Shown here piece by piece: positions 4,091 to 24,758 of a stretch of DNA of 27,999 bases. Source of the stretch: a virus; the IMG/VR virus record IMGVR_UViG_3300031227_000313, positions 1 to 27,999 of that record; one strand, 5' to 3'. The position numbers and the translations under genes are program-made. The number at the start of each line of letters is the position of its first letter. Positions within the stretch are counted from its first letter, which is position 1. Under the pieces are notes generated by a model. The model was not told the origin of the DNA, did not search any database, and was given only the letters and a program-made list of their open reading frames with translations.

Positions 4091-4234
4091 ATGAAACCTG
4101 AAGACAAGATTAAGAAACTACCGTTATCACATAGAGAGTTCAGAAACTCTAAACGTGATAGGAATGACGACTTACAGCAAGAATTTGATGATACAAAATC
4201 AGCAAAGGACAGATTAAATGGCAAAAAAGACTGA
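4091..4234 (+). CDS. Small charged protein, 47 aa, overlapping the portal gene start
   Basis: A 48-codon frame starts at ATG 4091 with GAGGG just upstream and ends 17 bases inside the portal gene. The peptide is very hydrophilic (MKPEDKIKKLPLSHREFRNS, then a DRNDDLQQEFDDTK stretch and a basic end NGKKD). It fills what would otherwise be a 134-base gap in a tightly packed operon, and the overlap suggests coupling with the portal. No domain is recognisable. It could be chance, but the ribosome site, position and overlap favour a real gene. Confidence 0.55.
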   Translation: MKPEDKIKKLPLSHREFRNSKRDRNDDLQQEFDDTKSAKDRLNGKKD

Positions 4235-6434
4235 CAGGCGAGTAGCTAAGAAAGACCTACTGAAGACAGACCTCACGGAGAAGGAAGCACCCAGAGTAGA
4301 GCCGGAGCTTGAATCTGATAAGGTATCAGCACCAGCGGCTAAAGAGATTGTCAAAGTGGTAATGGCGGATTACAAAGCGGGCATTGAGGCTATGACTGAT
4401 TATATAGCCCAAAGAGAGCTTGACTTGAAGATGTATTATGGCTCTAAACCTAGCGAAATAGAGAATCTAAAGAAAAAGGGTTGGCAATCTGATAGGAATC
4501 TAGGGGTTACTGCTGCTGTCTGCGATATATATCAAGCTACTTTACTGTCAACGTGTTGGACCCCCGACACCATTCACTTTATAGCTACAGAGAAGAACGA
4601 TATGGACAACAAGGCTAATCTGACTAGCTTTGCTAAGTGGGCAGTCAGTCAGAGTGAGGGAAACATCTTTCCAGAAGTAGATGACCATATTCACAATAGG
4701 ACGTCTCAGGGCTTCTCAGTGTTCAAGGTATATTGGAAAGTCTGGTATGAGTGGGTTGACAGGCGTATCCCTAACACTAAAACTGGTGGCTATATAATAA
4801 AAACAGAGAAAAAGCGTTTTGAAAAAGGCGTTATGGAGAATATCTCTAATGTAGAAGATATAGTCCTTCCGTCTTACGGCAAGAATATACAAAATCTAGC
4901 CTTCTTTATTCATGTAATACATAAGGCCAGTGATGAGGTAAAGGATTTAATTGATGACAATCGCTTCAGAGATGTACCTGATGACTTCATAGATAAGCTA
5001 AAGGGCGCTTGTGTAGATGCAAAAAACAAGTCTTTAGCTAAGACAAAAGCCAATTCTTTAGGTATATCATCTATTACAGATGCTGATTTAAGAGCTTTCC
5101 CTCTTGATTTGTATGAATGGTACGGCACTTATAAGCTTAAAAACAAGACAGAAAAGTATCGATTTACTATTGAGCCGATAACTCAGACGCTTTTAGATGC
5201 TAAGCCAGTGCGTAGAATCAATAGAACAAACAAGATACCCTTTGCGGGTGGTGCTTTTATAAGAATACCTGGAAGAATAAGGGGGCATTCTCTTCCTAAG
5301 CTTATAGCACCGGCAGTCAATGCTATAAATAATGTCTATAATCAGAAGTCAGACTTCCAGTATATAACTAACTGTCCATTTGGATTTGCTAACTTTGATG
5401 AGGGATATGTTACGCAAAAGCAAGAGCTATTTCCAGGTATGATTTATCCTGTGGCTGGGGATCCGACAAAGGCTGTCTATTTCCCCAACTTGCAGCGTTC
5501 TATGGCCTGGGCAATTCAAGACATCAACCTGCTATTTGAGATTATAGAAAAGCTCACAGGTGCGGGTTCGTACTTTCAGACAACAGGCAAGAATACATCT
5601 GGTACAGCTACAAGAGATATCATGGTAGCTGAAAAGGGAGAAACTAAGTTCAGTCTATGGGTTAAGCGCATAATGACTGATGTTTGTGAAGCTCTGACTA
5701 TGTTCATAAATATGTATCAGGATTGGGCACCACCTAACTTAGGACAGCGTGTTTTAGGGGAAGATGGCAAGCAGTTAATAAGAAATCTATCTATTGAGTC
5801 TTTAAGGGGTAATTATGCCGCAAGAATGGAAGCTGATAATCTATCCGGCTCTAAGACTCTTGAAAAGCAAGTTAAAATGTGGGCATTTGAGAATCTACAA
5901 GGTAGCATCTGGTGTAATCCTCAAATTAACCCTGAAGGTAATTATAACCTAGCAGCTGATACAATTAAGATACTTGGTATCAATGATGCTGAAAGATATT
6001 TAGGTAAGAAGCCGGATATAAAGAAAGGCTATGACAGCAAGGAGCTTGAAGAAGAATGGACACGATTTATGCAGGGCGAAGACTTTGACCCGCCAGAAGG
6101 CGAAGACGCATATCAACACATGATGGGCCACTTCAAGCAAAAAGAGGAAAACTACTATGACTTAGATGTTGAATATAGAGCCGTCTTTGATAAGCATCTA
6201 TTTAAGACAATGATAAATTTCCGAAAGCTAGTCAACGAGATACAGAAAACGAAGTTAGTCAATACAATGATGATGAGCATGATGCCCGAAAGTATGGCTG
6301 GCAGGCCACTGCCTGAAGGTCAGCAAGGAATGCAGCAGCAGGGTAGTCCGATGAATCCTAATATTGTCCAACCCCCAAATGCAGCAGCTCCTAATGCTAA
6401 TGATATGGGCTTAGGTGGAATGGGTGGAGCTTAA
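4218..6434 (+). CDS. Portal protein
   Basis: The 738-residue protein follows terminase and precedes the scaffold and capsid genes, the standard place for the portal. It is in the size range of podovirus portals such as P22 gp1 (about 725 residues). Features include a charged N-terminus (1-50), a helical segment with MTDYIAQRELDLKMYYG (about 59-75), and a wing-like region with aromatic DIYQATLLSTCWTPDTIHF (about 103-121). Further on are AINNVYNQKSDFQY and a long C-terminal helix, then a Met/Gln/Pro/Gly-rich tail (MQQQGSPMNPNIVQPPN). The dodecameric portal is the entry hole for DNA and the joint between head and tail. The start ATG 4218 has AAAGGA upstream. Sequence similarity to any one family was not searched; the call rests on position, size and layout. 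Confidence 0.85.
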   Translation: MAKKTDRRVAKKDLLKTDLTEKEAPRVEPELESDKVSAPAAKEIVKVVMADYKAGIEAMTDYIAQRELDLKMYYGSKPSEIENLKKKGWQSDRNLGVTAAVCDIYQATLLSTCWTPDTIHFIATEKNDMDNKANLTSFAKWAVSQSEGNIFPEVDDHIHNRTSQGFSVFKVYWKVWYEWVDRRIPNTKTGGYIIKTEKKRFEKGVMENISNVEDIVLPSYGKNIQNLAFFIHVIHKASDEVKDLIDDNRFRDVPDDFIDKLKGACVDAKNKSLAKTKANSLGISSITDADLRAFPLDLYEWYGTYKLKNKTEKYRFTIEPITQTLLDAKPVRRINRTNKIPFAGGAFIRIPGRIRGHSLPKLIAPAVNAINNVYNQKSDFQYITNCPFGFANFDEGYVTQKQELFPGMIYPVAGDPTKAVYFPNLQRSMAWAIQDINLLFEIIEKLTGAGSYFQTTGKNTSGTATRDIMVAEKGETKFSLWVKRIMTDVCEALTMFINMYQDWAPPNLGQRVLGEDGKQLIRNLSIESLRGNYAARMEADNLSGSKTLEKQVKMWAFENLQGSIWCNPQINPEGNYNLAADTIKILGINDAERYLGKKPDIKKGYDSKELEEEWTRFMQGEDFDPPEGEDAYQHMMGHFKQKEENYYDLDVEYRAVFDKHLFKTMINFRKLVNEIQKTKLVNTMMMSMMPESMAGRPLPEGQQGMQQQGSPMNPNIVQPPNAAAPNANDMGLGGMGGA

Positions 6435-8384: not shown

Positions 8385-8567
8385 ATGGCAAAAACAACTA
8401 GAGATGATGAGCAAAGTTTTTATATATGTGGACAATGTAAGACTAAGATTTATTATCTGAAGTCTGAAAGTCCTCCTATGCCTTGCCCAGAATGCAGTTG
8501 GAATCATGGAGCCAGAGATCTGTATGATGTTCCTTCTACTATCAAACTTGATTTAACTAAGTATTAA
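8385..8567 (+). CDS. Small zinc-ribbon protein, 60 aa
   Basis: Two CxxC knuckles, CGQC (Cys15, Cys18) and CPEC (Cys34, Cys37), are separated by 15 residues, the usual layout of a small zinc ribbon like those in rubredoxin-type or RNA polymerase-type ribbons. The N-terminus is short and polar and the C-terminus (VPSTIKLDLTKY) has no further motif. The ribosome site before ATG 8385 is poor. The gene lies between scaffold and decoration-like protein, 11 bases before the next start. It probably binds one zinc ion and acts as a small structural or nucleic-acid-contacting protein. A head role is inferred only from neighbours. Confidence 0.75.
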   Translation: MAKTTRDDEQSFYICGQCKTKIYYLKSESPPMPCPECSWNHGARDLYDVPSTIKLDLTKY

Positions 8568-9077: not shown

Positions 9078-9995
9078 ATGACAAGAAATGAACAATCACA
9101 GCTTTATACTCCTATTTACGATGAGTTCTTTATGTCAACATTCAATGAAGAAACTCAGGTTCATACTAAGCTTTTCAAAGCGATAGATGACCACACCAAA
9201 GAGTATAAGGAAGATTCAATTAGTGCATTGGGTAGATGGGTTGATGCCAATGAAGGCGAAGGCGGAGGCCAGGAAACCCCAGTCTTAGGTTATGCTAAGA
9301 CATACGAACCCGAAAAGAAATGGAAGAAACTCCAGATTACGTTCGAGGCCGTAGACCAGGATGAATATGCTTTAGCAAAAAAAGAAGGCGATGTAAAAGC
9401 AATGGGTAGAGGCGGTAGAGATGCCGTTGAAGCCGCAACTTCTGCTATACTAGCTGACGGTTTTGCTACAGCATGTCCTGATGGGCAGTATCTGTTCTCA
9501 AATTCACATCCTAAGAACAGCGAAGAAACAGGAACAGTGTACGACAACTTGCTTAGCGGTGCTCTTTCTCACACTTCGTTAGAAGCCGCAGAAACTCAAA
9601 TAGCTCAGAACGCCTTTGACCCTAAGGGTATTCCTATTGCTATGGGCGAAGAAGCTTATTTAGTTCATCCCCCAGAGTTAAAAGGGCAAGTTTTTAGATT
9701 GTTAAGTGATAGAGCCACTGAACAACCTGACACTACTCTAAGAAACGCCAATAGATTCTCAGGTAAATATACACCAGTTGAATGGAGGTATCTTTCATCT
9801 GCATTAGAGGGCTCTGCAACTATGTGGTTTATAGTTTATCCGGCTCTTAATATGCTAAAGATAATCTGGCAGGCAAGACCTCACTTTACCTCTTGGATTG
9901 ACAACGACTTAGAGCTTTACAACTTCAAGGGTAGAATGATATTTGACACTGGTGCATCTGATTGGAGAAGTGTTTGGGGTTCCACTGGATTATAA
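9078..9995 (+). CDS. Major capsid protein, HK97 fold, Mu gpT-like
   Basis: The 305-residue protein follows scaffold and decoration genes with a strong AGGAGG site. It shows features of Mu gpT-like major head proteins. These are an N-terminal arm (residues 1-40), an E-loop-like charged Gly-rich part (ANEGEGGGQETP), LFSNSHPKN around 139-147, and SHTSLEAAETQIAQNAFDPK. Also present are a strand AYLVHPPELKGQVFRLL and C-terminal WFIVYPALNMLKIIWQA and ASDWRSVWGSTGL. The SHP motif, the hPPxL strand and the closing WRxV are typical. It builds the icosahedral shell. There is no protease or N-terminal extension beyond the arm, so the separate scaffold gene is needed. It may be the client of the phage GroES-like protein; that is inference. 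High confidence in the call. Confidence 0.88.
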   Translation: MTRNEQSQLYTPIYDEFFMSTFNEETQVHTKLFKAIDDHTKEYKEDSISALGRWVDANEGEGGGQETPVLGYAKTYEPEKKWKKLQITFEAVDQDEYALAKKEGDVKAMGRGGRDAVEAATSAILADGFATACPDGQYLFSNSHPKNSEETGTVYDNLLSGALSHTSLEAAETQIAQNAFDPKGIPIAMGEEAYLVHPPELKGQVFRLLSDRATEQPDTTLRNANRFSGKYTPVEWRYLSSALEGSATMWFIVYPALNMLKIIWQARPHFTSWIDNDLELYNFKGRMIFDTGASDWRSVWGSTGL

Positions 9996-10020: not shown

Positions 10021-11706
10021 ATGAAGAAACAATTTTTCGTGATAGCTCTGTTGATTATAGGTTCATTTATTATTGGATTTATGTCTAGTGTAAGTTACGC
10101 TACTGTTATTCATGATGATGGTATATTGATTGTCGATAACGATGGATATATCTATGGCAAAACAGATGGTGCGATTGAATTAGGTAAATCCGGTAATGAG
10201 TGGGAGGATATTTACACAGATTCTATCACTCTGGGTGGTGTAGCAAAGACCTCTTGGGGAAGCGTTGTAACGCCTTGGGTTGACAATGGTACTTACATTG
10301 CTCCCACAGGCGCTCCTACGGCTGTTAAAATCTATCTCAATGGTAATGGTATTTTTATTGGCGATATAGATGCTGATAGCTATATAATGGAGAATGACGC
10401 TCAACTTGATAATGCTGTAAATAATACTGTTACTTTAACTGAAAATGATGATATTTTCTCTATTGTTTTTGCTACAACTGATATTACGCTTTCAGCGAGT
10501 GATGGTAGTATTGAGCTTTATCCTGAAGCAGATGCTACAGAAGGTACAGTTGATTTTCTAACTGGTGGCGACACGAATGACTTTTTGTATGTCAAAACCA
10601 CTTCTAATGTACCTATACTAGCAACTTCAGGCGGTTGTAATCTTTCAATAGTTCCTGATGGTGGAACACTTGCTTTAACAGGTATCTTGACTGTAAGTGG
10701 GGCCCAGACTTTAACAGGAGCTACAACTCTAACATCAGTTATTATAGGGGATGATACTTATGACGTTGTTGTTGATGACGAGCATAGGTTTACTTCTAAT
10801 GATAGTGATGTTGTGGTTGATGTTTTTGCAACTACTGATAAAGATGCTATCTTGCAGTTGACAGCGGACCTTTCAGCAGACAGTGGCGACGAATGGCAGC
10901 TGAAGAATGATGATGCTGATAGTAATGCGTTGTTATTCATCAATGATACTGGCGGTTCACTTGCTACTATTATGGAGTTGTCTGTTGGTGGTGTTTTAAC
11001 TTTAACCAGTAATTTGGTCGGTGAAAACGCTGATGTGTTAGATAACGCAACTGATGATACATTTCAGTTTTCGTCTAACGATTTAGATACAACTATTAGA
11101 GCTTATGGCTATGAAGAGAAAGATGCCATTTTAAGATTGACAGCAGATGAAAGCGATAATGATGGTGATGAATGGCAAATTAAGCACGAAGCTACTGGTA
11201 ATCATTTACAGTTTGTTACTGATGCTTCTGGCTCTGATGTTGTTCTTGCCTACTTTAACGCTTCAACTGGTTTTCATCTTGGCGGAGCTTTAGGTGTTTG
11301 TGGAGTTACAACACTATCTGGCAATGTCAATATGTATCAGGCAGATTTAACTATTACTGATGCAACTCTTGGTGATAGCTTAACTTTTGATACTTCAGCT
11401 GGTGATTTAGCTATAGCAGGTGATTTGTCAGTTGATGGTGATGACATCAATGCCGATGGTAACTTAACTATTGATGCAGAAGGTGGAACACTTGCATTGC
11501 AAGCCGGAAGTACTGACATCTTGACTGTTGGTGGTTTAGGTGTATGTGTAATTGGTAATATAAGTAACACTGGTGATGTGTATGTTGGTGGAGATATTAC
11601 TGCTGCTAGTATGAAATCTGGTACAGACCAGGGTGATGCTGGTGCAGCTGCTGGTGAGCTTTATTACGACACTAATGATGATGATACTATCAAAATGGGC
11701 ACTTAA
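10021..11706 (+). CDS. Secreted-type beta-repetitive fibre-like protein, 561 aa
   Basis: The start ATG 10021 has an excellent AGGAGG site, so the N-terminus is reliable. It encodes a clear Sec signal peptide: MKK, a hydrophobic core FFVIALLIIGSFIIGF, and a cleavage site after Ala27 (SYA-TV). The mature protein is a run of Thr/Asp/Gly-rich beta repeats of the sort seen in phage fibres (GNLTIDAEGGTLALQAG, LTITDATLGDSLTFDTS). It has two copies of an about 80-residue module with KDAILxLTAD and GDEWQxK. The C-terminus (GAAAGELYYDTNDDDTIKMG) is a common fibre ending. It shares GDxxDxLYxxTTSN with the 1681-residue fibre. The gene directly follows the capsid gene and is followed by a hairpin. A virion surface or fibre protein is likely; the export signal is unexpected for one. 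Confidence 0.7.
   Translation: MKKQFFVIALLIIGSFIIGFMSSVSYATVIHDDGILIVDNDGYIYGKTDGAIELGKSGNEWEDIYTDSITLGGVAKTSWGSVVTPWVDNGTYIAPTGAPTAVKIYLNGNGIFIGDIDADSYIMENDAQLDNAVNNTVTLTENDDIFSIVFATTDITLSASDGSIELYPEADATEGTVDFLTGGDTNDFLYVKTTSNVPILATSGGCNLSIVPDGGTLALTGILTVSGAQTLTGATTLTSVIIGDDTYDVVVDDEHRFTSNDSDVVVDVFATTDKDAILQLTADLSADSGDEWQLKNDDADSNALLFINDTGGSLATIMELSVGGVLTLTSNLVGENADVLDNATDDTFQFSSNDLDTTIRAYGYEEKDAILRLTADESDNDGDEWQIKHEATGNHLQFVTDASGSDVVLAYFNASTGFHLGGALGVCGVTTLSGNVNMYQADLTITDATLGDSLTFDTSAGDLAIAGDLSVDGDDINADGNLTIDAEGGTLALQAGSTDILTVGGLGVCVIGNISNTGDVYVGGDITAASMKSGTDQGDAGAAAGELYYDTNDDDTIKMGT
10749..11270 (+). repeat. Two copies of an about 80-residue module in the fibre-like gene
   Basis: Residues about 243-325 and 337-415 repeat the same pattern: a D-rich lead, FxSND.D, a (K)DAIL(Q/R)LTAD segment, GDEWQ(L/I)K, then LxFxxD..GS. 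Copies differ at most positions at the DNA level, so the duplication is old rather than recent. Confidence 0.65.
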
Positions 11707-11756: not shown

Positions 11757-11858
11757 ATGAAAGGCAAGCCAAAAAGAAACGGTAGTGGTAAAGGTACAAG
11801 AGCTAATAGAGGCAGAGGCGGTTGTGCAACTACCAAAAAGAGGGGCAAGGGAAGATAA
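11757..11858 (+). CDS. Very small basic Gly/Arg/Lys-rich peptide, 33 aa
   Basis: ATG 11757 has a GAGGGG site 7 bases upstream, and the stop overlaps the next start as TAATG. The peptide starts MKGKPKRNGSGKGTRANRGR and ends GGCATTKKRGKGR; 12 of its 33 residues are Lys or Arg, there are no acidic residues and one Cys. Such composition suggests an unfolded nucleic-acid-binding or condensing peptide, or one that binds an acidic protein partner. It lies between two genes with signal peptides but has none itself. The strong ribosome site and exact coupling make chance unlikely. No family is recognised. Confidence 0.65.
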   Translation: MKGKPKRNGSGKGTRANRGRGGCATTKKRGKGR

Positions 11859-12631
11859 TGAAAAAAATACTCATATTACTGCTTTTGAGCTTCTTTGTAT
11901 GCTCATCTGCTATAGCTACTGAAGCAGTATATAATAGAGATAGCAGTTATGATGTTGTAGGGTGGCACGTTTGCGTGGCTGACAATGATATAGACGCTAC
12001 GGCAGAGCTTCTAACAGAGCTTGATACAACCTATCTGCAATTAACTACCGCTTATGATACGCTTGAGGTGGTTAGTGCAAGCGCTTTAGATATAACTCAA
12101 AGTATTACTGTTTATGGTATAGACAATAACAGTAAAAAGTGTTCGGCTACATTTGAATTAAATGGGACTGCGGCGGTTTGCGGCCCTCAATATTTTCAAT
12201 TTGTTGATTATGCTGTTTTAAATGCCGAATGCGCTGGAGTTATTACAGTAAGAAGAGCAACTAATGATGTGTTTATCGTTTCCGTTCCAATAGGTCAGCT
12301 TAATTCTCAAGCAGCTCAACATTTCAATGGTGAATATAATAGCTTTATAACTAGTTGGAAGTGCGGCGTTACTACGACTACAGGTTCAGTATTGTTTGAA
12401 TTACGTTGGTATCCAGATGATAGTGATAGCCGATGTTTCTTAAATGGTTATATTCTATTAGATGAGATTTACATAGATGGTGCAGTTACATCTCCATATA
12501 ATGCGCCTCCAGTGGTCTTTCCTCAACCAATCAAATGCCCGGCGGGGGGTTGGCTGGCGGTGTTTGGGACAGGTGGAGCGATTGATTGTGATGGGGTAGT
12601 AACTATTCAAGGATATGACGCACGACCTTAG
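11858..12631 (+). CDS. Exported Cys-rich beta protein, 257 aa
   Basis: The correct start is ATG 11858, overlapping the previous stop and preceded by AAGGGA; an upstream TTG at 11822 would bury the signal peptide. The N-terminus MKKILILLLLSFFVCSSAIA is a classical signal peptide with a cleavage site after Ala20 (AIA-TE). The mature part is beta-rich with eight Cys (in HVC, KKC, AVC, AEC, WKC, SRC, IKC, IDC). An even number of cysteines fits disulfide formation outside the cytoplasm. The last third (YILLDEIYIDGAVTSPYNAPP and WLAVFGTGGAIDC) has the feel of a virion surface protein. Position between fibre-like and adaptor genes suggests a virion or receptor-related role. I do not recognise the family. 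Confidence 0.75.
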   Translation: MKKILILLLLSFFVCSSAIATEAVYNRDSSYDVVGWHVCVADNDIDATAELLTELDTTYLQLTTAYDTLEVVSASALDITQSITVYGIDNNSKKCSATFELNGTAAVCGPQYFQFVDYAVLNAECAGVITVRRATNDVFIVSVPIGQLNSQAAQHFNGEYNSFITSWKCGVTTTTGSVLFELRWYPDDSDSRCFLNGYILLDEIYIDGAVTSPYNAPPVVFPQPIKCPAGGWLAVFGTGGAIDCDGVVTIQGYDARP

Positions 12632-12640
12632 GAGAAACAA

Positions 12641-13294
12641 GTGAATAGAGGAGAAATAATATCAAAGTTCAGAGAAGAAAATCCCGAAATAACTGATAGA
12701 GTAATAACAAATACTGTTTTAAATGGGTGGTGCAAAGCGGCAGATAAAGAGATATGCGCAGAGGCAAGATGTATCGTGTCTAACGAACCCGAAACAATCT
12801 CTACAACAGAAGATGATGCTTATTGGGATTTAACAGCTCAGATACCAAAGTTTTATGACATAGATGAATACCCTGGCGGCGGAGTTGCCTATGATGATGA
12901 TAGACTTAAACTAACAACTATTGCTCAATTAGATGAAGAAAGTTCCGGGTGGAGAACAAGAAGCTCGGGAACCCCTAAAAAATACTTTAGACGTGGTCAA
13001 TATCTTTATGTTGACAGACCTGTTAATAGTGATGCGGAAGATATTACTATTTATGCTGTTTACATTTCAGATGATTTTAACTCTAACGACAAAACTCCCT
13101 ATAATCAGCTTTCTCATTTAACACCTTTCCACGATGGCATCAATAAATACTTGCAATGGCGAGCAATGGGTAAAGTAGGCAAAGAAAAGGAAGCTAAATC
13201 AGCTCAAAAAGATTATATGAATTATGTTGCTTGGATGAAAAAGTTGATACGGGGAGGTTCACATAATGTTATATTTTTCACACCGCCTCATTAG
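12641..13294 (+). CDS. Putative head-tail adaptor/connector protein
   Basis: The start is GTG 12641 after a good AGGAG site. The 217-residue protein has a helical N-terminus (GEIISKFREENPEITDRVI), then a beta part with a pattern frequent in phage adaptors. That pattern is LTTIAQLDEESSGWRTRSSG, followed by TPKKYFRRGQYLYVDRP and a strand (DITIYAVYI), ending in a helix (YLQWRAMGKVGKEKEAKSAQKDY). The Ld...gWr..sGtP..y...g..l.vdrP motif is characteristic of connector proteins that sit under the portal, although I cannot name the exact family. It has no signal peptide, in contrast to its neighbours. The C-terminal 29 bases overlap the next gene. In the virion it would form the ring joining portal and nozzle. 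Confidence 0.65.
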   Translation: MNRGEIISKFREENPEITDRVITNTVLNGWCKAADKEICAEARCIVSNEPETISTTEDDAYWDLTAQIPKFYDIDEYPGGGVAYDDDRLKLTTIAQLDEESSGWRTRSSGTPKKYFRRGQYLYVDRPVNSDAEDITIYAVYISDDFNSNDKTPYNQLSHLTPFHDGINKYLQWRAMGKVGKEKEAKSAQKDYMNYVAWMKKLIRGGSHNVIFFTPPH

Positions 13295-15638
13295 TAAATA
13301 TGTAACATATTTGTTAATTGCTTTATTTATGGCTATCTCTGCGCCTGCTGTTGCTCAAGAAAGCATATCTGCAAAAAATCAGATTTATGTATTAGATGAT
13401 TTTTCTGGAGGATTAAATGTAAAGGCTTCAGAGTTTAAATTAAAGCCAAATCAAGCAACCATAGTAGAGAATGTAAGGCTTAATAGAGAGCTTGAAGTAT
13501 TATCAAAGCGAACTAATTTGCGCTTATACGGAACAGCCGATGCGACAGAAGCTATTACTGGCAATCATCGTCTTTATAAGAAAGACGGCACAAAAGCGCT
13601 GATTGTTTGTCATGGTAATGAGATTGAAGTTGGAGATGATAGCGCTGGCACAACGTCAACCATTCTTAATTTAGCTTCTGGTGATTATAGATGGCAATGG
13701 GCAACATGGCACGATATAGCAATAGGATGCGATGGATATAACCCTCCTGTCAAATATGATGGCAGTTCTGCCTCAGCAACATACTTAGGCTCTTGCTTAG
13801 CGCTTGATGCGGGTAGCGGAGCGGGCCCTGACGGCACTTATACATACAAAGTAACCTTCTATACTGCCTCTTATGAGGTTTCGTTTGATACGGCTTCTAA
13901 TTCGCTTACTGTATCGGATAAAGATATTGATTTATCTATGATCCCTATTGGGCCCGATACATTTGGCGGAGAAGATGTTGTCGGCAGAAAAATATACAGA
14001 ATTAAAACCGCGGGAAGCACTTATTATTTATTATCTAATGGAACAATAGCCAATAATACAGCAGTAACTTTAACTGATTCCGATGCGGACGGAGAGCTTT
14101 CCGCTACTGCGTTAAGCCCTGGCTATACTTATGCCCCGCCAAAAGGTCTATTGCTCATAGTTCATAAAAATAGATTATGGTTTGCTAATAATCCCACATA
14201 TCCTTCACGCCTTTATTATTCAGAAGACGCAAGCCATGATTACTTTGTATCTGATAATTATTTTAATATAAGAGCTGATGATGGCGATGAAATAACCGGT
14301 GTCTTTAACTTATTAGGAATATTAACTGTTACTAAAAATGGTTCGTGGATTAAAGCATATACAGAAAGAGATGACCCTGATACAGACTGGGAAATATCTG
14401 ACTCCTTTAGCCCGGTAGGCAGCGATGCTTATTATTCAGCAGTCAGCACGCCATTAGGCATTATGTTTCTTGATACAAGTGGTATATATATATTTAATGG
14501 TCAATATGCGACTCTTTTATCTGACGATGTTGCCCCTGAAATGCTTAACATATCAGAGTCTAATTATGCAAATTGTTGGGCGGCTTTTCATAAAAATGTT
14601 TATTATCTTGCCTATACTTCCGGTACATCAGGTTCATCTGTAAATGATAGAGTTCTTATATATGATATTATAAATAAATCTTTTTCTATTGATATACTCG
14701 ACATAAGTTCTTTTTGTGTGTTTTCAGCTCAAAGCGATAGAGATACTTTGTATGCTGGTTCGTCAACATCAGGAAACATTTTATCGTTTTCAGAAAGAGT
14801 TAATGAGGTTACTCACAGAAGACACGAAGATTTTTCAGGAACATTCTGTAATGCCAGGTATCAGCCAACTCGTTGGGGTGGAAAAATAAATGACGCTGTA
14901 TTAGAAATGGCATGGTCGGTTACTATAGATTCCGGTTGGGATAGCTGGGGTGCTACATTAAACGATTTGCCAGGTAGAATTGACAGACCTACTACAAGTG
15001 GTACTTATGTATCACAAGTGCTTTATATTGGTGCTACAGAGCTTGATAAATTATATTGGAATGAACTGATACCGGCAACAGGTGGCGATGTTACATTTAA
15101 TATAAGGGGTGGGGCTACAGCGGCAGCTTGTGCAGCGGCAACGTGGAGTTCTGCGTTTAGCAATCCGTCTGGTTCAGATATATCAGGTGAAACTGCTTAT
15201 GATTATATTCAATATAAAATAAACATGACATCAACTGATATGGATTATTCACCTTATGTTTATCGTTCTAATAGGTCTTATGTGGTTAGATTAACTTATG
15301 AAAAAGAAGGAAGCTCATACGAAACAACAATTCCTTTGCGTTGGATTTCAGGGTGGAATGATTTACAAGCACCAGGGTATAAAAAGATATTAAGAAAACT
15401 ACATGCTTTATATGACACGGATTCTACAGGAAAGATGACAATTACATTTGAAAACTTTGAAGGTGATGAAGATGAATTTGAAATAGACTTGAATGATAAC
15501 CCTAAAAGTTATATAGAATATTTTACAGAAGGCGGTTTGGTCGGAGAATTTTTTAAGATAAAAATAGAAGAATCATCGTTAAGCGATATTCAAATAAATA
15601 AACTAATTTTAATATACGATATTGAACCTTTAATATGA
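13266..15638 (+). CDS. Tail nozzle/DNA-stabilisation-like protein with a Sec signal peptide, 790 aa
   Basis: ATG 13266 follows GGGGAGG and overlaps the adaptor gene. The first 30 residues form a signal peptide: basic RLISKY, hydrophobic YVTYLLIALFMA, cleavage site APAVA-QE after Ala30. The mature protein opens with VLDDFSGGLNVKASEFKLKP, NQATIVENV and a SKRTNLRLYG element. This DF.GGln....l.pnqa...NV......l..R pattern marks short-tail nozzle and stopper proteins (T7 gp12 and P22 gp10-like groups); the length is close to T7 gp12. The body alternates beta strands with short motifs such as WATWHDIAIGCDGYNPPVKYDG and KNRLWFANN, fitting a beta-propeller. It would form the lower tail tube and hold packaged DNA. 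An export signal on such a part is not expected. Role is inferred from motif, length and place after the adaptor. Confidence 0.72.
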   Translation: MLYFSHRLISKYVTYLLIALFMAISAPAVAQESISAKNQIYVLDDFSGGLNVKASEFKLKPNQATIVENVRLNRELEVLSKRTNLRLYGTADATEAITGNHRLYKKDGTKALIVCHGNEIEVGDDSAGTTSTILNLASGDYRWQWATWHDIAIGCDGYNPPVKYDGSSASATYLGSCLALDAGSGAGPDGTYTYKVTFYTASYEVSFDTASNSLTVSDKDIDLSMIPIGPDTFGGEDVVGRKIYRIKTAGSTYYLLSNGTIANNTAVTLTDSDADGELSATALSPGYTYAPPKGLLLIVHKNRLWFANNPTYPSRLYYSEDASHDYFVSDNYFNIRADDGDEITGVFNLLGILTVTKNGSWIKAYTERDDPDTDWEISDSFSPVGSDAYYSAVSTPLGIMFLDTSGIYIFNGQYATLLSDDVAPEMLNISESNYANCWAAFHKNVYYLAYTSGTSGSSVNDRVLIYDIINKSFSIDILDISSFCVFSAQSDRDTLYAGSSTSGNILSFSERVNEVTHRRHEDFSGTFCNARYQPTRWGGKINDAVLEMAWSVTIDSGWDSWGATLNDLPGRIDRPTTSGTYVSQVLYIGATELDKLYWNELIPATGGDVTFNIRGGATAAACAAATWSSAFSNPSGSDISGETAYDYIQYKINMTSTDMDYSPYVYRSNRSYVVRLTYEKEGSSYETTIPLRWISGWNDLQAPGYKKILRKLHALYDTDSTGKMTITFENFEGDEDEFEIDLNDNPKSYIEYFTEGGLVGEFFKIKIEESSLSDIQINKLILIYDIEPLI

Positions 15639-18600
15639 AAAAAACTATATTTTATTTTCTCATAATTATATTTTTATTAAGCATACCCTCGTGTATATAT
15701 GCCGGAACTACAGTTAAGGGCGAGCAAATAATGGATTTTGAGGGAAAATCTCTGCCTATCCTCAATGAACGTTTACGCAAGATAGAAGATAAGCTTTGGG
15801 AAATAAAAACAGATGATGACGATACTTCTCCTGGATATTTAGAAACGAAAGTTAAGAATAGCGTTGAGATAGACAATGGTTCAATACAGCTTAAAAATGA
15901 CTCCGCCGCCCCTTCCAATAAAACAGTTTACGGCAAAACAGAAGCTGGTGTTCAGGGTTGGAAGTCTGAAGAGCAGACTCTTGATGATGTATGTACTCTC
16001 GGTGCTACTACAAATCTTACTTTATCCGTAGGCTCCTTCTCCGCAGACGGTGTATGCTCACGTACTCATTTATCAACTGTCTATGATGCCTTTATCGGAA
16101 GAAATGCTTATATTACTGATGATGTTATTATATACGATAGCCTTACCGTTACGGGATTAAGTTCTTTAGTCGGAAATGTTACCTGCACAAGCGACCTTGC
16201 CATAAATGGAAGCGACCTTACTTCTACTGGTGATTTAAGATTTAAAGTTAATGGTGATAGTGATGACTACTTATACTTAAACACTACATCAAACATAGCA
16301 TATCTCTTACCAGTAGATGACTCTACACATATAATAGGTAAAACAGGTCTTGTATTTGCAGAGGGTTGGTTTGATAAGATAACGACTGATAATGACTTAA
16401 CACTTAATCCATTAGGCAATGATGTAATATTCTATAAAGGTGGAACAGCAGACGCAGGTACTACTGAATACAACTCGAGAGATGCAGAGTTTCTGGGAAG
16501 TGCGTTGATTACGACTAGCAGTTGGATAAAGCGTTTCCCAACTGGAATAGATGAGGAAATATATTGGAGAAGCTGTGCATCTAGTTCTGATGGCAGTACT
16601 TTAATAGTTGGTGTATCTGCTGGGCGTTTGTACATTTCCTCTGATTATGGAGTTACCTGGACAGAACGACAACCTGCTGGGGATGTTGATGAAGCTTGGT
16701 ATGGTCTTGCATCTGATAGTGATGGCAGTAATTTAATAGTTAGTGGTGTTTATGGTAGAGTTTGGACTTCAGTAGATTCAGGAGCAAATTGGACTGAACG
16801 TCGACCAACAGGAGAAGATGTTGATAGGTGGTGGGATGCTGTAGATTCTGATTCTGACGGAAGTAATTTAATGGCTGCGATTAATGGAAAGCGTTTATAC
16901 ACATCAGCTAACTCTGGTGTAGACTGGACGGAAAGACAACCTGATGGAAATCGTGACAGAGGTTGGAGAGTTGCGGTTTCTAATGATGATGGTAGTTTTT
17001 TGATGGCTGCATGGGGACCTACAGGTAGGGCATATACATCAGATGACTCTGGTGCTACTTGGACGGAAAGACAGCCATTAGGCGATATAGGTGAAAGCTG
17101 GTATAGTGGGGCTTGTGATAGTGATGGTAGTAATTTAATCATAGCTGCTACTAATGGGCGTATATACACATCAGCTAATTATGGTGTAGATTGGACAGAA
17201 AGGCGACCCTCTGGATATGATGGTAATTTTGATTGGAGAAGCTGTACGTCTGATGCTGATGGTAGTCATCTTTTTGTCTGTCGATTTAATGGGCGTGTGT
17301 ATAGTTCATCAGATAGTGGTGTTACTTGGGCAGAAGAACAACCATCTGGAGATAATTATATAGATTGGCATAGTGTTGCTTGTGGTAATGATGGAAGTAA
17401 TGCTATTGCAGTAGCTAGCGATACGACTGGTGGGGTTTGGACTTTGCAAAATACTGCTGTAGATAGAAAAATAACCCAACGCTTAATACCTGAAGGCAAC
17501 TTAGCCACACCAAAATATAGACTTGGCTTTTTAGATAATAATGATAGTGAATTCATTAGCTTTGACGGACTTAATCAACGCCTTGGTGTTGGAGTAATTG
17601 ACCCTGATACAAAGACTGAAATCTTACACGCAGGTACTCAATTAAAATTAAGCTATGACGCTACTAATTATATAACACTTGCAACGCAAAGTGATGGCGA
17701 TCTTACGCTTGATAGTAATAAAACAAGTTATGACTTAGATTTTGGGGATGGTAACTTAATTACTACAGGCACTTTTGAAGCAGGTCCAACAGGTCTTGAT
17801 AGCTTATGCGTAAGAGATAAAATAAGTACAGTTGGAAATGCTTATATAGGTGGTAATGCTTATATTACAGGCGACGCTACAATAGGCACAGGACAGCATT
17901 TAACTCTAGGCACAACTCAATGGGATAATGGGGCAGATAAAATTGATGGCGAGCAAATAGCTGATAATACTATTGATGAAGATTCTATTGATTGGGGTAC
18001 AGGAACAGATCAAGTAAGTGCCGCAGATGTTCCGGTTCCAGTTTTAGACACACCAACTTATGATAATTTAGGGGATGCGTTTAAACTATTCACTTCAGCA
18101 GGAAGAATATCTGGTGGAGCAATTACACAGCACGGTGGTGACGCAACTGTAGATGTTGCTGCAGGTCAAGGTGTTATAAGAATAGCTGATGATGATACAA
18201 GCGCTATTAAGTTCTTCACTATACCCGCAACTACTGAGATTGGTGTAGCAGCAGGAGAAACTAAGTATATTGTAGTTGATTATAATACAGGCACAGAAGC
18301 TATTACAGTAACAGCGTGGGCAGCCGAAACTTGGGATAAAGATACAGAGTTTCCTTTAGGCAAAGTTGTTAATGATGGTGGCGAATTACATATTATAAAT
18401 AATCCTTGGTGGGTTGGTGATGCTTTTACAAACGTAATAGAAAGAATGGAAGGGATAGCCTATTTTGCAAGAGATGAACGTGGTGGTGGTTTACTCTTAT
18501 CCGTTTCTGATGAAACCAATAGAGAGATAGCAGTTACAGGTGGAACAGTTTGGAGTAGACTTAATGAATTTGAAACTACCACACTAGATACTGATGTTAC

Positions 18601-20680
18601 TGGAACATTTCATTTGGATTATGAAAGTGGTGATGGTGTATGGACAGGAAATGATGTAACTGCGTACACAGTTGACCAATGGAATAATGTAACTACACAC
18701 GCTTTAGTTAATCTAACAAATAATTACTATATGAATATGTGGGTTTATGTTGAGCCAGACGCAGTTGCAGGCGAGCAAGTGCATATGGTATATGGACAGA
18801 GCCAAAACAAAAAGTCTGCTGTTATTGAAGCTGAAGCTCCACCAACAAATTTACCTTCTCACATTACAGAAACTTGTATACTTATAGGAAGAATAATTAT
18901 AAAAGAAGGTGTTAATGCACCAGTATCGGTTCAAACAGTATTTACAACTCAATTCACAGCTTCACAAGCAGCAGATCATTGTAACTTAACAAACCTTGCT
19001 TGGGGGTCATCTTGTCATACAGGTACAGCGTCTAATTTTGCAGGATTTGATGGAGCTGGTGATGCTGAAGAATACCCTGAAGTTAATTATCTTTTAACGG
19101 ATGGAACAAGAGCTTTAGCAGGTAATTGGGCTTTAGGGGGATACAATCTTACAGGTGGAGGTTCTATTGCTGGTACTGATTTAACTCTTTCAGGTGACCT
19201 TGCTCTTAATGGCGGAGATATTACTTCAACTTCAAGTAATTTGAGTATTCAATGTGGAAGTCAAACTACTGCACATCTTGCTATAGGTTTTCCTGGTGGA
19301 AGTTGGACTGTTTATCCAAGTCTAGGTGGTAATTATAGATTTGGCTATTCAAGTAAAGCTTGGTTGGAAGGATGGTTTTATAAAATAGCTTCTGATGGCG
19401 ATTTAACTTTAGACCCTGCTACTAATAATGTTATATTAGATAATGCCAATCTACAAATTAAAAGCAATTATGAATTACGCTTTTATGACAACGGAAACTA
19501 TGTAGGATTTGAAGCCCCTGCTTTAGCTGCTGATAAGATATGGGTTTTACCAAATGCTGATGGAACTATTGACCAAGCATTAAAAACAGATGGTTCAGGT
19601 AATTTAGGTTGGGTGACTGTTGTTGGCGGAGGCGACCTTTTAGCAGATGGCTCTGTACCTTTAACAGCAGATTGGGACGCAGGGAATAGTTTATACGATA
19701 TAACTGCCGTAGAGTTTAAAGGTGCATTAAAAGGAAACGCAGATACAGTAACAAATGCTACGCTTACTACAGCTTTAACAGTAAATACAGGCACACTAAC
19801 CTTAATTGCTAATGCCGCAAATAATTCTGTTTTAACTTTAAATGCTGGTGCTTCTGCTATCTCTGGTATGAATACTGGCGATAATACTGTATGCACATCA
19901 GGGGCAGCCACAACTGCTGAAACCTTAAAAACAGCAAGAGCAATAAATGGTATAGATTTTAATGGTAGTCAAGCTATAACAGTAACCGCAGATGCTAATA
20001 CACTTAGTAACACTACTCTTAAATCTACAATATTGGCTTCTTCATTAACTTCAGTAGGAACAATTGACTCATTAGTAGCTACCACAGCAGACATAAACGC
20101 AGGAACGTTTGATGGCATAGTAGGTGGAACTACTCCCGCCGCAATTACAGGCACTACAATAGCAACAAGCGGTGCAAATGATATGACTGTTGCTAATGGT
20201 AATCTGGTAATAGGAACTTCTGGCAAGGGTATAGACTTCTCTGCTACTTCAGATGTTGGTGGTATGACGAGTGAGTTATTAGATGATTATGAAGAAGGGA
20301 CTTTTACTCCTGGTGTTTCTTTTGGTTATGGAACTACTGGGATAACATATATGGCAACTTATACGTTTGGTGCTTATACTAAAGTAGGGAATATGGTTCA
20401 CGCAGAAGGTAGAGTGTTGCTATCATCAAAGGGTTCATCTACTGGGGCAGCAAGGGTAACTGGCTTACCATTCACAACAAAAAGCGGCAATCGTCAAATA
20501 ACAGCAAATGTAGCTTTTAGCGTTGTAAGCTTTGCTAATCAATTTGAGTGTATAGTAGAACCTAACAATACAACAGTATATTTACAAGAAATTACTGAAG
20601 CAGGAGCAACTTCAGCACTAACAGACGCTAATTTTGCAGATATAAGTCAGGTATGGTTTAGCATAACTTATTCATTGTAA
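15635..20680 (+). CDS. Giant tail fibre with signal peptide and seven-repeat Asp-box propeller, 1681 aa
   Basis: ATG 15635 overlaps the nozzle stop as ATGA; no strong ribosome site is seen, so it depends on coupling. The N-terminus MKKTIFYFLIIIFLLSIPSC continues IYA-GT, a signal peptide probably cut after Ala23. Next come VKGEQIMDFEGKSLP and a short coiled part. Residues about 295-608 are seven repeats of about 45 residues with DGS and S.D.G..W.E (BNR/Asp-box), a likely seven-bladed propeller. Then follow beta-helix-like Thr/Asp/Gly repeats and a PALAADKIWVLPNADGT segment near 1290 with LKTDGSGNLGWV. A C-terminal domain starting DDYEEGTFTPG near 1550 is common on phage fibres. It is probably the receptor-binding fibre. 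Asp-box propellers can bind or cut glycans, but no catalytic set is evident. Confidence 0.8.
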   Translation: MKKTIFYFLIIIFLLSIPSCIYAGTTVKGEQIMDFEGKSLPILNERLRKIEDKLWEIKTDDDDTSPGYLETKVKNSVEIDNGSIQLKNDSAAPSNKTVYGKTEAGVQGWKSEEQTLDDVCTLGATTNLTLSVGSFSADGVCSRTHLSTVYDAFIGRNAYITDDVIIYDSLTVTGLSSLVGNVTCTSDLAINGSDLTSTGDLRFKVNGDSDDYLYLNTTSNIAYLLPVDDSTHIIGKTGLVFAEGWFDKITTDNDLTLNPLGNDVIFYKGGTADAGTTEYNSRDAEFLGSALITTSSWIKRFPTGIDEEIYWRSCASSSDGSTLIVGVSAGRLYISSDYGVTWTERQPAGDVDEAWYGLASDSDGSNLIVSGVYGRVWTSVDSGANWTERRPTGEDVDRWWDAVDSDSDGSNLMAAINGKRLYTSANSGVDWTERQPDGNRDRGWRVAVSNDDGSFLMAAWGPTGRAYTSDDSGATWTERQPLGDIGESWYSGACDSDGSNLIIAATNGRIYTSANYGVDWTERRPSGYDGNFDWRSCTSDADGSHLFVCRFNGRVYSSSDSGVTWAEEQPSGDNYIDWHSVACGNDGSNAIAVASDTTGGVWTLQNTAVDRKITQRLIPEGNLATPKYRLGFLDNNDSEFISFDGLNQRLGVGVIDPDTKTEILHAGTQLKLSYDATNYITLATQSDGDLTLDSNKTSYDLDFGDGNLITTGTFEAGPTGLDSLCVRDKISTVGNAYIGGNAYITGDATIGTGQHLTLGTTQWDNGADKIDGEQIADNTIDEDSIDWGTGTDQVSAADVPVPVLDTPTYDNLGDAFKLFTSAGRISGGAITQHGGDATVDVAAGQGVIRIADDDTSAIKFFTIPATTEIGVAAGETKYIVVDYNTGTEAITVTAWAAETWDKDTEFPLGKVVNDGGELHIINNPWWVGDAFTNVIERMEGIAYFARDERGGGLLLSVSDETNREIAVTGGTVWSRLNEFETTTLDTDVTGTFHLDYESGDGVWTGNDVTAYTVDQWNNVTTHALVNLTNNYYMNMWVYVEPDAVAGEQVHMVYGQSQNKKSAVIEAEAPPTNLPSHITETCILIGRIIIKEGVNAPVSVQTVFTTQFTASQAADHCNLTNLAWGSSCHTGTASNFAGFDGAGDAEEYPEVNYLLTDGTRALAGNWALGGYNLTGGGSIAGTDLTLSGDLALNGGDITSTSSNLSIQCGSQTTAHLAIGFPGGSWTVYPSLGGNYRFGYSSKAWLEGWFYKIASDGDLTLDPATNNVILDNANLQIKSNYELRFYDNGNYVGFEAPALAADKIWVLPNADGTIDQALKTDGSGNLGWVTVVGGGDLLADGSVPLTADWDAGNSLYDITAVEFKGALKGNADTVTNATLTTALTVNTGTLTLIANAANNSVLTLNAGASAISGMNTGDNTVCTSGAATTAETLKTARAINGIDFNGSQAITVTADANTLSNTTLKSTILASSLTSVGTIDSLVATTADINAGTFDGIVGGTTPAAITGTTIATSGANDMTVANGNLVIGTSGKGIDFSATSDVGGMTSELLDDYEEGTFTPGVSFGYGTTGITYMATYTFGAYTKVGNMVHAEGRVLLSSKGSSTGAARVTGLPFTTKSGNRQITANVAFSVVSFANQFECIVEPNNTTVYLQEITEAGATSALTDANFADISQVWFSITYSL
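16520..17455 (+). repeat. Seven tandem about 132-135-base Asp-box (BNR) repeats in the fibre gene
   Basis: Each unit encodes W..........DGS.l.......R.y.S.d.G..W.Er.P.G. The seven DGS elements are followed by six good Asp-boxes (SSDYGVTW, SVDSGANW, SANSGVDW, SDDSGATW, SANYGVDW, SSDSGVTW) and one degenerate last one (TTGGVWTL). Similar short DNA words recur (tggac.gaa.g.c..cc), so the units arose by tandem duplication. Confidence 0.85.
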
Positions 20681-20693
20681 ACAGGAGAAATAA

Positions 20694-21245
20694 ATGTTAA
20701 AAATAGTAATAACAATCAGTTTATTATTTGTATGTTCTATCGCTTATGCACAACCTCTTTATACAAAGTCCGTAAGCAATTTTTATGTGATAGACGAAGA
20801 TGGCAAAATGTCTAATACTGAAATAACTAAAATATTTAAAGATGGGGAATATAAAGGCAGTAAAAACAAACCAATTCTTAAAGAGGAAGAGTTTAACGAA
20901 AAAGGTGCTGCTTTATTGAATTTAATAAGCACCAAGGATTTTGGGGATGCTGTTAAACAGGAACACGCTATACTGGGAGTTGGTAATGAAGAAACTGTAA
21001 CTTTTCAAACAGAGATATTACAAGACGGACAGATACAGGTTCGTGCAGCAATACGAACCTTTGAAAACGGTGAAGAAATAGCAAAAACTTTTCACAGGCA
21101 CGTTTTAGCACCCGATACTTCAACTGAAACTTTGAATAAGGAAGTTCAGAGAGTTCAGGATATAGCTGACGCGGTTTGGACAAATGAGGTTATAGAAAAT
21201 TATAATACTAAAAAGGCTAAACGAGAGAAAGAATTAAGTAAATGA
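20694..21245 (+). CDS. Exported hypothetical protein, 183 aa
   Basis: ATG 20694 has a strong AGGAG site. MLKIVITISLLFVCSIAYA is a signal peptide with cleavage after Ala19 (AYA-QP). The mature protein has an N-terminal beta part (SVSNFYVIDEDGKMSNTEIT), a middle with ETVTFQTEILQDGQIQVRAA (paired strands), and a C-terminal charged helix (STETLNKEVQRVQDIADAV and KKAKREKELSK). It follows the fibre gene and overlaps the lipoprotein gene by 4 bases (ATGA). It could be a small tail-associated protein, a fibre chaperone, or a periplasmic protein made during late infection. I do not recognise the family. Confidence 0.7.
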   Translation: MLKIVITISLLFVCSIAYAQPLYTKSVSNFYVIDEDGKMSNTEITKIFKDGEYKGSKNKPILKEEEFNEKGAALLNLISTKDFGDAVKQEHAILGVGNEETVTFQTEILQDGQIQVRAAIRTFENGEEIAKTFHRHVLAPDTSTETLNKEVQRVQDIADAVWTNEVIENYNTKKAKREKELSK

Positions 21246-21484
21246 GATACTTACTGATTAGTATATTACTATTAGGTATATGTGGGTGTGCAAGTTTTAA
21301 ATATGACCAGTATGACCAAGGGTATGAATTAGGCAAGCAACCTGATTTTAGTATAAGGGTAAAGGGCAAGGGCGATGTTAGTGTTAAGAGGCTTCCTGAC
21401 GGAACGGTTGAAACTGATGTGAAAGCTGGGAAACCTTTGATAAATATAAACAACATACCTATAAAGTATGAGAACAACGACTAA
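21242..21484 (+). CDS. Small lipoprotein, 80 aa, possible outer-membrane spanin
   Basis: The start overlaps the previous stop. The N-terminus MRYLLISILLLGICGCAS has a lipobox (I-C-G-Cys16) typical of bacterial lipoproteins, giving a mature peptide of about 65 residues. It is polar, with DQYDQGYELGKQPDFSIRVK, a GDVSVKRLPDGTVETDV beta-hairpin-like part and no helix. Small phage lipoproteins late in the operon next to a membrane-anchored coiled-coil protein (next gene) suggest an o-spanin/i-spanin pair that fuses outer and inner membranes at lysis. Against this, the gene order is reversed from lambda Rz/Rz1 and the mature part is not Pro-rich. Lipoprotein: likely; spanin: uncertain. Confidence 0.75.
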   Translation: MRYLLISILLLGICGCASFKYDQYDQGYELGKQPDFSIRVKGKGDVSVKRLPDGTVETDVKAGKPLININNIPIKYENND

Positions 21485-21493
21485 GGAGATAGC

Positions 21494-21826
21494 ATGAGTG
21501 AAAAGAATGGGCTAAACATAAGGGCGATCGGATTAGTGATAACCTTGTTTATATTGGCAGGCGGTATAATCACGACATTTGCCGTATCGCAGGAAAGGTT
21601 GGAAACAGCGAGAGAAGATATCGCAGAGGTGGATAGCAAGCTTGACGAGTGCGTTAAGGAAATTCAAGGAGATATTAGTAATGTAAAAGATGATATGAGT
21701 GATGTTAAAATAGACGTTGCCAAATTGCAGATTGATGTTGAAATCATTAAAGATGATAATAAGTATATGAGGGGTAGGCTTGATTATATAGTTGAGGAAC
21801 TGGCGAAACAGAATAGGGGTAGTTAA
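21494..21826 (+). CDS. Membrane-anchored coiled-coil protein, 110 aa, possible inner-membrane spanin
   Basis: ATG 21494 has AAGGAG upstream. The first 10 residues are polar, residues 11-30 form a membrane helix (AIGLVITLFILAGGIITTFA), and 33-105 are a coiled coil with heptad-like D/V/I spacing (ISNVKDDMSDVKIDVAKLQI). Inner-membrane spanins (Rz type) have exactly one N-terminal helix and a periplasmic coiled coil, and the preceding gene encodes a small lipoprotein. A tail or holin-associated coiled-coil protein is an alternative. The stop shares one base with the next start. Topology is clear; function is inference. Confidence 0.65.
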   Translation: MSEKNGLNIRAIGLVITLFILAGGIITTFAVSQERLETAREDIAEVDSKLDECVKEIQGDISNVKDDMSDVKIDVAKLQIDVEIIKDDNKYMRGRLDYIVEELAKQNRGS

Positions 21827-23069: not shown

Positions 23070-24011
23070 ATGAAAAAACTATTTTTAGCTTTATTGTTAG
23101 TTGTGTTTTTAAGTGTTAATGCGCAAGCCGCCTATGAATGGAGACACGCGACGGGAGAAGATACTATTTTGGGTACAGAAAACCCGTCTGATATAGATAG
23201 CGCATCTTATCAAGATATAGTAGCGCCTCTTGATAGAGTATTGGGAACGCACAGGCAAGGGTGTGATTTATCTTATACTGGTGTTTCTGAAATAGCAGTA
23301 GCTACAGGCGAGGTAGTTTGTAGCAATACGGCCGCATCAGTAAGGAAGTTTAGACAAAATACATCAGCGACTTCAGTTGATTGGGACAATATAGATACTG
23401 GAAGTGAAGACACCTCTACTACATATTATATCTATGCTGTAGCTGATGCAGATGCAAATACTTTTACAGTAATGATTTCAGCGTCATCAACATCCCCTAC
23501 GGGTGCAACTTACTATAGACAGCTAGGTAGTTTTTATAATGATTCAGATGGCGATATAGTCGAGGCTTCTGTTTATGCAAATAATTATGTTAAAATGGAT
23601 GCAAACGGAAGATTACCTGCCGCAAACAGCCCAATAAACATATTGCACGCAACTGAATCTTGCATAGCAGCTACTTATGCGGATATGAATGATGGAGGTC
23701 AATGGACAAGCTTTGATATAACCTTAAATAGCACATCAACTATATTAGTAATTGGGGCTGTTGAAATATCAAGCAATAATGCTACCATTGATGGTTATAT
23801 ACAGGTTGTTTATGGTAGCACTCAAATAGCTGAAGCTTATGCTGGTGGTGATGGAGCGGCTTACCCAGCTTATGAGAAAGAAGATATAAACGGAATAGCA
23901 ATCAACGTAGCAGCAGGTACCTATACGATAAAAGCACAGCTTAAAGCTGGTACAGCTTCACTAAATACACTTGGGAAAATCTATTGTACTGTTTATGTGA
24001 TACCAGAATAA
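23070..24011 (+). CDS. Exported fibre-like protein, 313 aa
   Basis: ATG 23070 follows AAGGAG. The N-terminus MKKLFLALLLVVFLSVNAQA is a signal peptide cut after Ala20 (AQA-AY). The mature protein begins YEWRHATGEDTILGTENPSD, then has a motif run that I associate with phage fibre and baseplate-type proteins: GCDLSYTGVSEIAVATGEVV, SVRKFRQNTSATSV, TTYYIYAVADADANTFTV, GATYYRQLGSFYNDSDGD. The C-terminal half is a beta-sandwich-like domain (STILVIGAVEISSNNATIDG and GTYTIKAQLKAG). It is the last gene of the exported block, just before the ejection-type genes. A virion surface protein is the likely role; the signal peptide is unexpected. Confidence 0.7.
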   Translation: MKKLFLALLLVVFLSVNAQAAYEWRHATGEDTILGTENPSDIDSASYQDIVAPLDRVLGTHRQGCDLSYTGVSEIAVATGEVVCSNTAASVRKFRQNTSATSVDWDNIDTGSEDTSTTYYIYAVADADANTFTVMISASSTSPTGATYYRQLGSFYNDSDGDIVEASVYANNYVKMDANGRLPAANSPINILHATESCIAATYADMNDGGQWTSFDITLNSTSTILVIGAVEISSNNATIDGYIQVVYGSTQIAEAYAGGDGAAYPAYEKEDINGIAINVAAGTYTIKAQLKAGTASLNTLGKIYCTVYVIPE

Positions 24012-24023
24012 AGGAGAAAGATT

Positions 24024-24746
24024 ATGTGGCAATACGCAATACCAGCAGCAATACAATTAGCATCCGGACTTTTTGGAGAGGATGAAGACAAATCTAAACA
24101 AACATCTACATCTAAGACTACATATAGTCAACTTCCCGGATACGGTGAATCAGATGCGGCCAGAGGCGGGATGTGGGGTGCCTTACAGGGTGGAAGTGCT
24201 GCCAATATGTGGGGCGCAACAGAAATAGATTGGGATGACATCTATGATACTGCCCTAAAGCAGGTTAATCAGTTTTATGGTGGTAGCGCAATGACCACAG
24301 GCCTTATGGATAAGGTAAAGGCATCTGCGGCCAGAAGAGGCGTATCTGATAGCCCTGCCCTTGAAAATACTATGGCTATGACAGGGATAGAGCAAGCAGG
24401 CGACATATCTGATTTAATAAGCAATCTTACTCAGCAAAAATCTCAATACGCTGAAAGCGCCAGAGGTACGTGGCTTAACTCTATTGCTGCCTTAGCTGGC
24501 ATGAAGCCTCAATATGGGGCAACAGGGTCAACCACGACCACTACAGGGCAACCTGGGGGCGGTGGCGGCATGGCTGACATTGTATCTGGTATTGGTTCGG
24601 GCATTGGTTCAATAATGAGTCAAAAGGGTCAGCAAGATTGGTATGAAAAATTACTAGCACAACAAATGCCTAGCGCTACTCAGCAATCAATAACGGGTAA
24701 CGGAGATTGGAAATCCCCAACAGGGCAGACGTTTAATTATAGATAA
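24024..24746 (+). CDS. Putative internal virion/DNA ejection protein, 240 aa
   Basis: ATG 24024 follows AAGGAG. The N-terminus MWQYAIPAAIQLASGLFGED is amphipathic and hydrophobic, but it lacks the positive charge of a signal peptide. The middle is Gly/Ala/Ser/Gln-rich helix (AMTTGLMDKVKASAARRGVS, DISDLISNLTQQKSQYAESA). A Gly-rich stretch GQPGGGGGMADIVSGIGSG leads into a second hydrophobic helix with GxxxG spacing. The C-terminus is polar. This layout is that of the small internal core proteins of podoviruses (T7 gp14 or P22 gp7 type) that leave the head and form the channel through the envelope. Order also fits, because two further ejection-type genes follow. No homology search done. Confidence 0.6.
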   Translation: MWQYAIPAAIQLASGLFGEDEDKSKQTSTSKTTYSQLPGYGESDAARGGMWGALQGGSAANMWGATEIDWDDIYDTALKQVNQFYGGSAMTTGLMDKVKASAARRGVSDSPALENTMAMTGIEQAGDISDLISNLTQQKSQYAESARGTWLNSIAALAGMKPQYGATGSTTTTTGQPGGGGGMADIVSGIGSGIGSIMSQKGQQDWYEKLLAQQMPSATQQSITGNGDWKSPTGQTFNYR

Positions 24747-24758
24747 CGGAGGTTAATT

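Follow-up and report, generated by a model that had tools for sequence, protein, structure and literature searches.

Predicted Sec signal peptides on the tail nozzle and fibres of a group of uncultured short-tailed phages and a possible two-compartment route of virion assembly

Virion assembly in tailed phages is taken to be finished in the cytoplasm before lysis, and known nozzles join the adaptor there and help to retain the DNA. In an uncultured virus record (IMGVR_UViG_3300031227_000313, positions 1 to 27,999; this whole stretch of 27,999 bases is called the window here), a putative nozzle gene begins with what looks like a signal peptide, which raises the question of where such a nozzle would meet its head. 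The original prediction named two possibilities, namely that the nozzle is cleaved and exported and meets the head outside the cytoplasm, or that it stays uncleaved and its hydrophobic N-terminus serves as a membrane-penetrating tail tip.

The ORF at 13266-15638 encodes 790 aa including the signal peptide, and an AlphaFold (AF2) model of the mature 760 aa (13356..15638, + strand) shows platform, beta-propeller and nozzle domains. The model reached a pLDDT of 89 and a pTM of 0.82 from an alignment of 42 sequences; an 8-sequence alignment gave a poor model (pLDDT 43). The top Foldseek matches in the PDB were tail proteins of cyanophage A4, Pa223, SU10, T7, P22, Sf6, and crAss001. VIA-align Z-scores were 31.7 for the Pa223 tail (450 residues, 2.8 A), 29.0 for SU10, 27.4 for P22 gp10, and 21.7 for T7 gp12, all four alignments covering model residues 7-760, while other beta-propellers aligned in the propeller portion only, at a Z of around 22. 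The sequence evidence is thin: the ORF matches phrog_8040 (head closure Hc3, E 2.7e-5), weak PHROG matches among members of its family are to phrog_8040, phrog_578 (head closure Hc3), phrog_511, and phrog_3287, and neither a Pfam search nor a profile search of PDB sequences gave a match. The modelled fold is decisive, and with its platform beta-sandwich and beta-propeller, the adjoining adaptor gene and the sequence family, it identifies the ORF as a podophage tail nozzle. The original identification as a nozzle thus held when the mature protein was modelled, since the fold is that of T7 gp12 and P22 gp10 and not an unrelated one.

In both the SU10 and the P22 nozzle, chain residue 2 aligns with model residue 9, which makes residues 1-30 an extension that precedes an already complete nozzle. 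Each contig has one strong nozzle match, and no signal-less paralogue was detected. Three otherwise conserved nozzles of 926-1123 aa have large insertions (L087:7477-10299, L089:1508-4288, and L116:1836-5207). In genome G020 (the L115 contig, 43981 bp), a C-terminal piece of the nozzle recurs at the opposite contig end, which suggests a terminally redundant or circular assembly.

Residues 1-30 (13266..13355, + strand) read MLYFSHRLISKYVTYLLIALFMAISAPAVA and end in SAPAVA, with the predicted cut before QE, after which the protein continues as QESISAKNQIYVLDDFSGGLN. The basic n-region (R/K), a hydrophobic stretch some 15 residues long and the small residues at -3 and -1 (AVA before Q) agree with a Sec/signal peptidase I signal, as judged by a home-made heuristic, not SignalP, that itself favors Ala at -1. 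The score of 4.2 is far beyond chance level: shuffled N-termini pass in 3.6% of cases and shadow ORFs in 1 of 35, and SU10 gp17 (3.08) is a known false positive near the threshold. The ATG start is preceded at about 8 bases by a Shine-Dalgarno sequence, GGGAGG. Just two further in-frame starts precede the nozzle fold, TTG at 13311 and ATG at 13329, both inside the hydrophobic core and without such a sequence, and no in-frame start codon lies between the cleavage site and the conserved core of the window nozzle. The predicted signal peptide therefore stands, and translation from a start beyond the cleavage site does not account for it.

The family of this phage is a large group of uncultured short-tailed phages. 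Relatives in IMG/VR were collected by a portal search (23 loci), an alignment of the major capsid protein (MCP) (36 loci), and a nozzle alignment (62 loci). A nozzle scan of IMG/VR with a single sequence found no match, and the MCP and nozzle alignments were required. The same two alignments gave no host or prophage among 84,980 bacterial and archaeal species, one genome each, and plasmids gave no match. Deposited phages gave only partial or remote matches at 24-28% identity, and no cultured relative, host or proteomics for the group was found. Membership in Kuravirus (SU10-like) was considered and rejected, as tblastn of INPHARED with the portal and nozzle matched only Manatee Spring contigs; the sole SU10-type tie by sequence is a Pfam portal-domain match (PF23899).

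The nozzle signal is kept across the group. Among 44 distinct orthologues whose 5' end is intact, drawn from many metagenomes and sharing about 33-60% identity, 43 have it; the remaining one (L061) has KHKKSAFSLATIIILALLTNVNTLFA in frame, cut before QD, without a clear start codon. By family count, 40 of 50 nozzles have a signal, and those without one are truncated, miscalled or remote. Signals span 16-31 residues, with Ala at -1 in 41/43 (a residue that the heuristic prefers) and Gln at +1 in 27/43, and mature residues 1-10 have a net charge of -1.0, as in Sec substrates. Pairwise identity of the signals is flat at 37-39%, whereas the mature parts share 52-60% in closer pairs, which argues for selection for a signal and not for a particular sequence or structural piece. 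In a remote sister clade, all nozzles with readable starts, including that of L119, lack the signal. Outgroups were not resolved in the tree owing to long branches, so gain versus loss of the signal is not polarized.

Whereas the original prediction had rightly placed a signal on the nozzle, it overlooked the same kind of signal on the following fibre and on several other genes. Type-I signals were called in 6 of the 11 genes between the capsid gene and position 24011 and in none of the 15 others (Fisher p = 0.002), the six including the fibre gene at 15635-20680, counted by eye as the heuristic's best cut there is at a lipobox-like Cys. This gene (15635..20680, + strand) is coupled to the nozzle stop (ATGA) and encodes a large tail fibre of 1681 aa (phrog_5668 tail fiber, 2.5e-37) with the signal MKKTIFYFLIIIFLLSIPSCIYA, cut before G and followed by LPILNERLRKI. 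From residues 331-389 onward, it contains a Sortilin/BNR-like stretch of repeated WTERQPxGD units. The gene after the nozzle in most loci is a fibre with a signal followed by a motif of (L/V)P(V/I)LNEELR type, and that of L119 has LPSLNEIIR at residue 15 and no signal.

Upstream of the adaptor, a signal peptide is found on a fibre-like protein after the capsid gene (10021..11706, + strand, with an AGGAGG Shine-Dalgarno sequence), as also on its L013 and L014 homologues, and on a conserved 257-aa protein (11858..12631, + strand; MKKILILLLLSFFVCSSAIA, cut before T) that has about 49% identity in relatives and carries a signal in 8/8 family members. Downstream lie a phrog_6228 protein with the signal peptide MLKIVITISLLFVCSIAYA, cut before Q (20694..21245, + strand), and a lipoprotein (lipobox LGICGC) with a TM/coiled-coil partner (21242..21826, + strand), a pair that is possibly spanin-like from its sequence features and a weak match to phrog_739 (Rz-like spanin, 0.005). 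The last is an Mtd-like protein (major tropism determinant second domain, PF21916, 3.1e-6; 23070..24011, + strand) whose family has the signal in 29/35 members; no diversity-generating reverse transcriptase for it, and so no diversity-generating element, was found in 22 related contigs. Three small-protein families of the same region (14/16, 14/16, and 13/15) and one fibre family (6/7) also have signals. In ctLwi270 (L025), L130, and L132, one to three fibre-like genes have signals but the nozzle has none, so these intermediates show that nozzle and fibre signals are not strictly tied.

Most gene families in the window and its relatives carry a signal almost always or never. The adaptor, or head-tail connector, overlaps the nozzle start (12641..13294, + strand; phrog_399, E 2.3e-5) and is free of signals in the window, as originally stated, and in all 48 family members; adaptor homologues are also present in nozzle-bearing contigs of relatives. 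Signals are likewise absent from the families of the SU10-type portal (4218..6434, + strand; PF23899, 9e-11; 0/36), the major capsid protein (9078..9995, + strand; PF25209, 3e-11; 0/30), the scaffold (0/32), and the terminase (0/21). The putative internal or ejection proteins, a role that we infer (24024..27997, + strand), lack signals too, with 0/15 in the family of the first; the last contains lysozyme and LysM domains. The division between signal-bearing proteins (nozzle, fibres, and receptor binder) and signal-less ones (portal, adaptor, capsid, scaffold, and putative ejection proteins) thus falls at the adaptor-nozzle interface. Between the capsid and adaptor genes, relatives encode two conserved small proteins without signals, of 114 aa and of 288 aa (a coiled coil). 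A multi-TM protein that by eye resembles an O-antigen ligase or polymerase also lies between these genes in many relatives (a family of 18, including L027:9786-11024, L015:6814-7998, L038:8159-9385, and L046:11461-12663) and is not in the window.

The T7 gp12 and P22 gp10 nozzle (stabilization) proteins have the same fold as the window nozzle and are encoded after the adaptor gene, but no signal is found on their nozzles, fibres or other structural genes, and they are assembled onto the head in the cytoplasm. SU10 (Kuravirus) shares the fold of its nozzle gp17 (Z 29) and the portal type (PF23899) with the window and has a similar tail of adaptor, nozzle and fibres docking on the nozzle, with no tblastn sequence match between the two. 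Unlike the window nozzle, that of SU10 begins directly with the platform domain, and among SU10 genes the heuristic passes only a holin and one borderline false positive, with no real signal on nozzle or fibres. The Manatee Spring podovirus ctLwi270 (MW202554) has a related stabilization protein (25% identity over part) and, like the window, has signals on structural-module genes, three in its case, although its nozzle has none. The host Sec pathway is used by phage proteins of other kinds, such as SAR endolysins, spanins, coat proteins of filamentous phages, and Lom, none of which is a tailed-phage nozzle or tail fibre. Export of Lom through Sec has been described (PMC12309495). Our literature search, confined to open-access PMC articles, gave no precedent for nozzles or fibres that carry signal peptides. 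The nozzle fold is known, the signal on it is new within that literature, and the assembly route would be new if shown.

Sec export followed by cleavage is the simplest reading of these signals, and export of the nozzle is well supported by the comparative sequence data. We give a probability of roughly 0.5 to the reading in which the protein is a virion tail nozzle that bears an additional, cleavable Sec signal, is exported and cleaved, and joins cytoplasmic heads at lysis. Signal peptidase would remove residues 1-30, and the mature nozzle would fold alongside the fibres in a diderm host's periplasm; no phage-encoded signal peptidase was found, and that of the host would suffice. DNA-filled heads capped by the adaptor would be made in the cytoplasm and would not acquire nozzle and fibres until lysis opens the inner membrane. 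The split of signals along the adaptor-nozzle interface is the basis for proposing that head with adaptor and nozzle with fibres are completed separately. As a general scheme for the group, two-compartment assembly, with cytoplasmic heads, a Sec-exported periplasmic nozzle and fibres, and virions completed only at the inner-membrane breach during lysis, seems to us slightly less probable than that. Of the two possibilities originally named, export is the better supported, by the kept signal, the signal peptidase motif and its sharing among tail genes, and the joining place is proposed from the split.

Several observations count against this proposal. Known nozzles help retain DNA, so these heads would need another plug, for which the 114-aa and 288-aa proteins are candidates by position only. 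The mature nozzle has no even-cysteine (disulfide) bias and thus no independent trace of an oxidizing compartment, the signal calls are heuristic, and fibre and nozzle signals are not strictly tied. Tail parts leaving the cytoplasm to meet a DNA-filled head elsewhere are not known for tailed phages, and the clade-wide signal on nozzle and fibres but not on head parts or adaptor would mean that at least part of the tail is made across a membrane. If this is true, holin triggering would govern when virions are completed, the cytoplasm would be kept free of tail proteins, and the site of phage assembly would become a testable question in this group.

The most serious competitor, though still unlikely, is that the signals target tail proteins to the inner membrane with partial export, virions being built in the cytoplasm or in association with the membrane by the conventional pathway. 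Cytoplasmic head joining is the rule in studied phages, no disulfide trace is seen, and an in-frame ATG at 15731 could yield a signal-less fibre in the window. However, the window nozzle has no such start between signal and fold, and nearly every member has a strong-looking signal with an orthodox cleavage site.

We consider it improbable that the exported proteins are not virion parts and have their effect on the producing cell or beyond it, by receptor blocking, superinfection exclusion or as decoys. Surface modification would fit an exported Mtd-like receptor binder and the O-antigen ligase/polymerase-like protein, named by eye, of the relatives, but the nozzle is the sole copy per contig and keeps its whole adaptor-docking fold, and the virion would otherwise be nozzle-less.

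The membrane-penetrating tip is disfavored and very unlikely, even though a hydrophobic segment is present. In SU10, the N-terminal part of the nozzle belongs to the platform domain, which contacts two adaptor subunits (PMC9509320), and the SU10 alignment places the window N-terminus there as well, so a signal left uncleaved would lie next to the head and not at the tip. The conserved cleavage motif, the 16-31 residue length range with flat identity and the same signal on unrelated proteins also speak against it. An artefact, whether a hydrophobic start arisen by chance, a misassigned start codon or an error in assembly, has hardly any probability left, being already contradicted by the 44 orthologues and by the zero or near-zero frequency of signals among head genes of these contigs, despite some false positives of the heuristic such as SU10 gp17.

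Three further features of the window lie outside the tail genes. The terminase large subunit (1802-3721) contains a mini-intein at about residues 471-610 (Hint/Intein_splicing; CLVGNTLIRT...VSNC); the alignment with terminases of relatives stops at residue 486, and the identical insert occurs in L002 only. A 60-aa zinc-ribbon-like protein between the scaffold and capsid genes (8385-8567) has exactly four cysteines in 22/22 family members. A GroES (Cpn10) is encoded at 1063-1389 and occurs in 6 of 9 long relatives searched, three of which have two copies.
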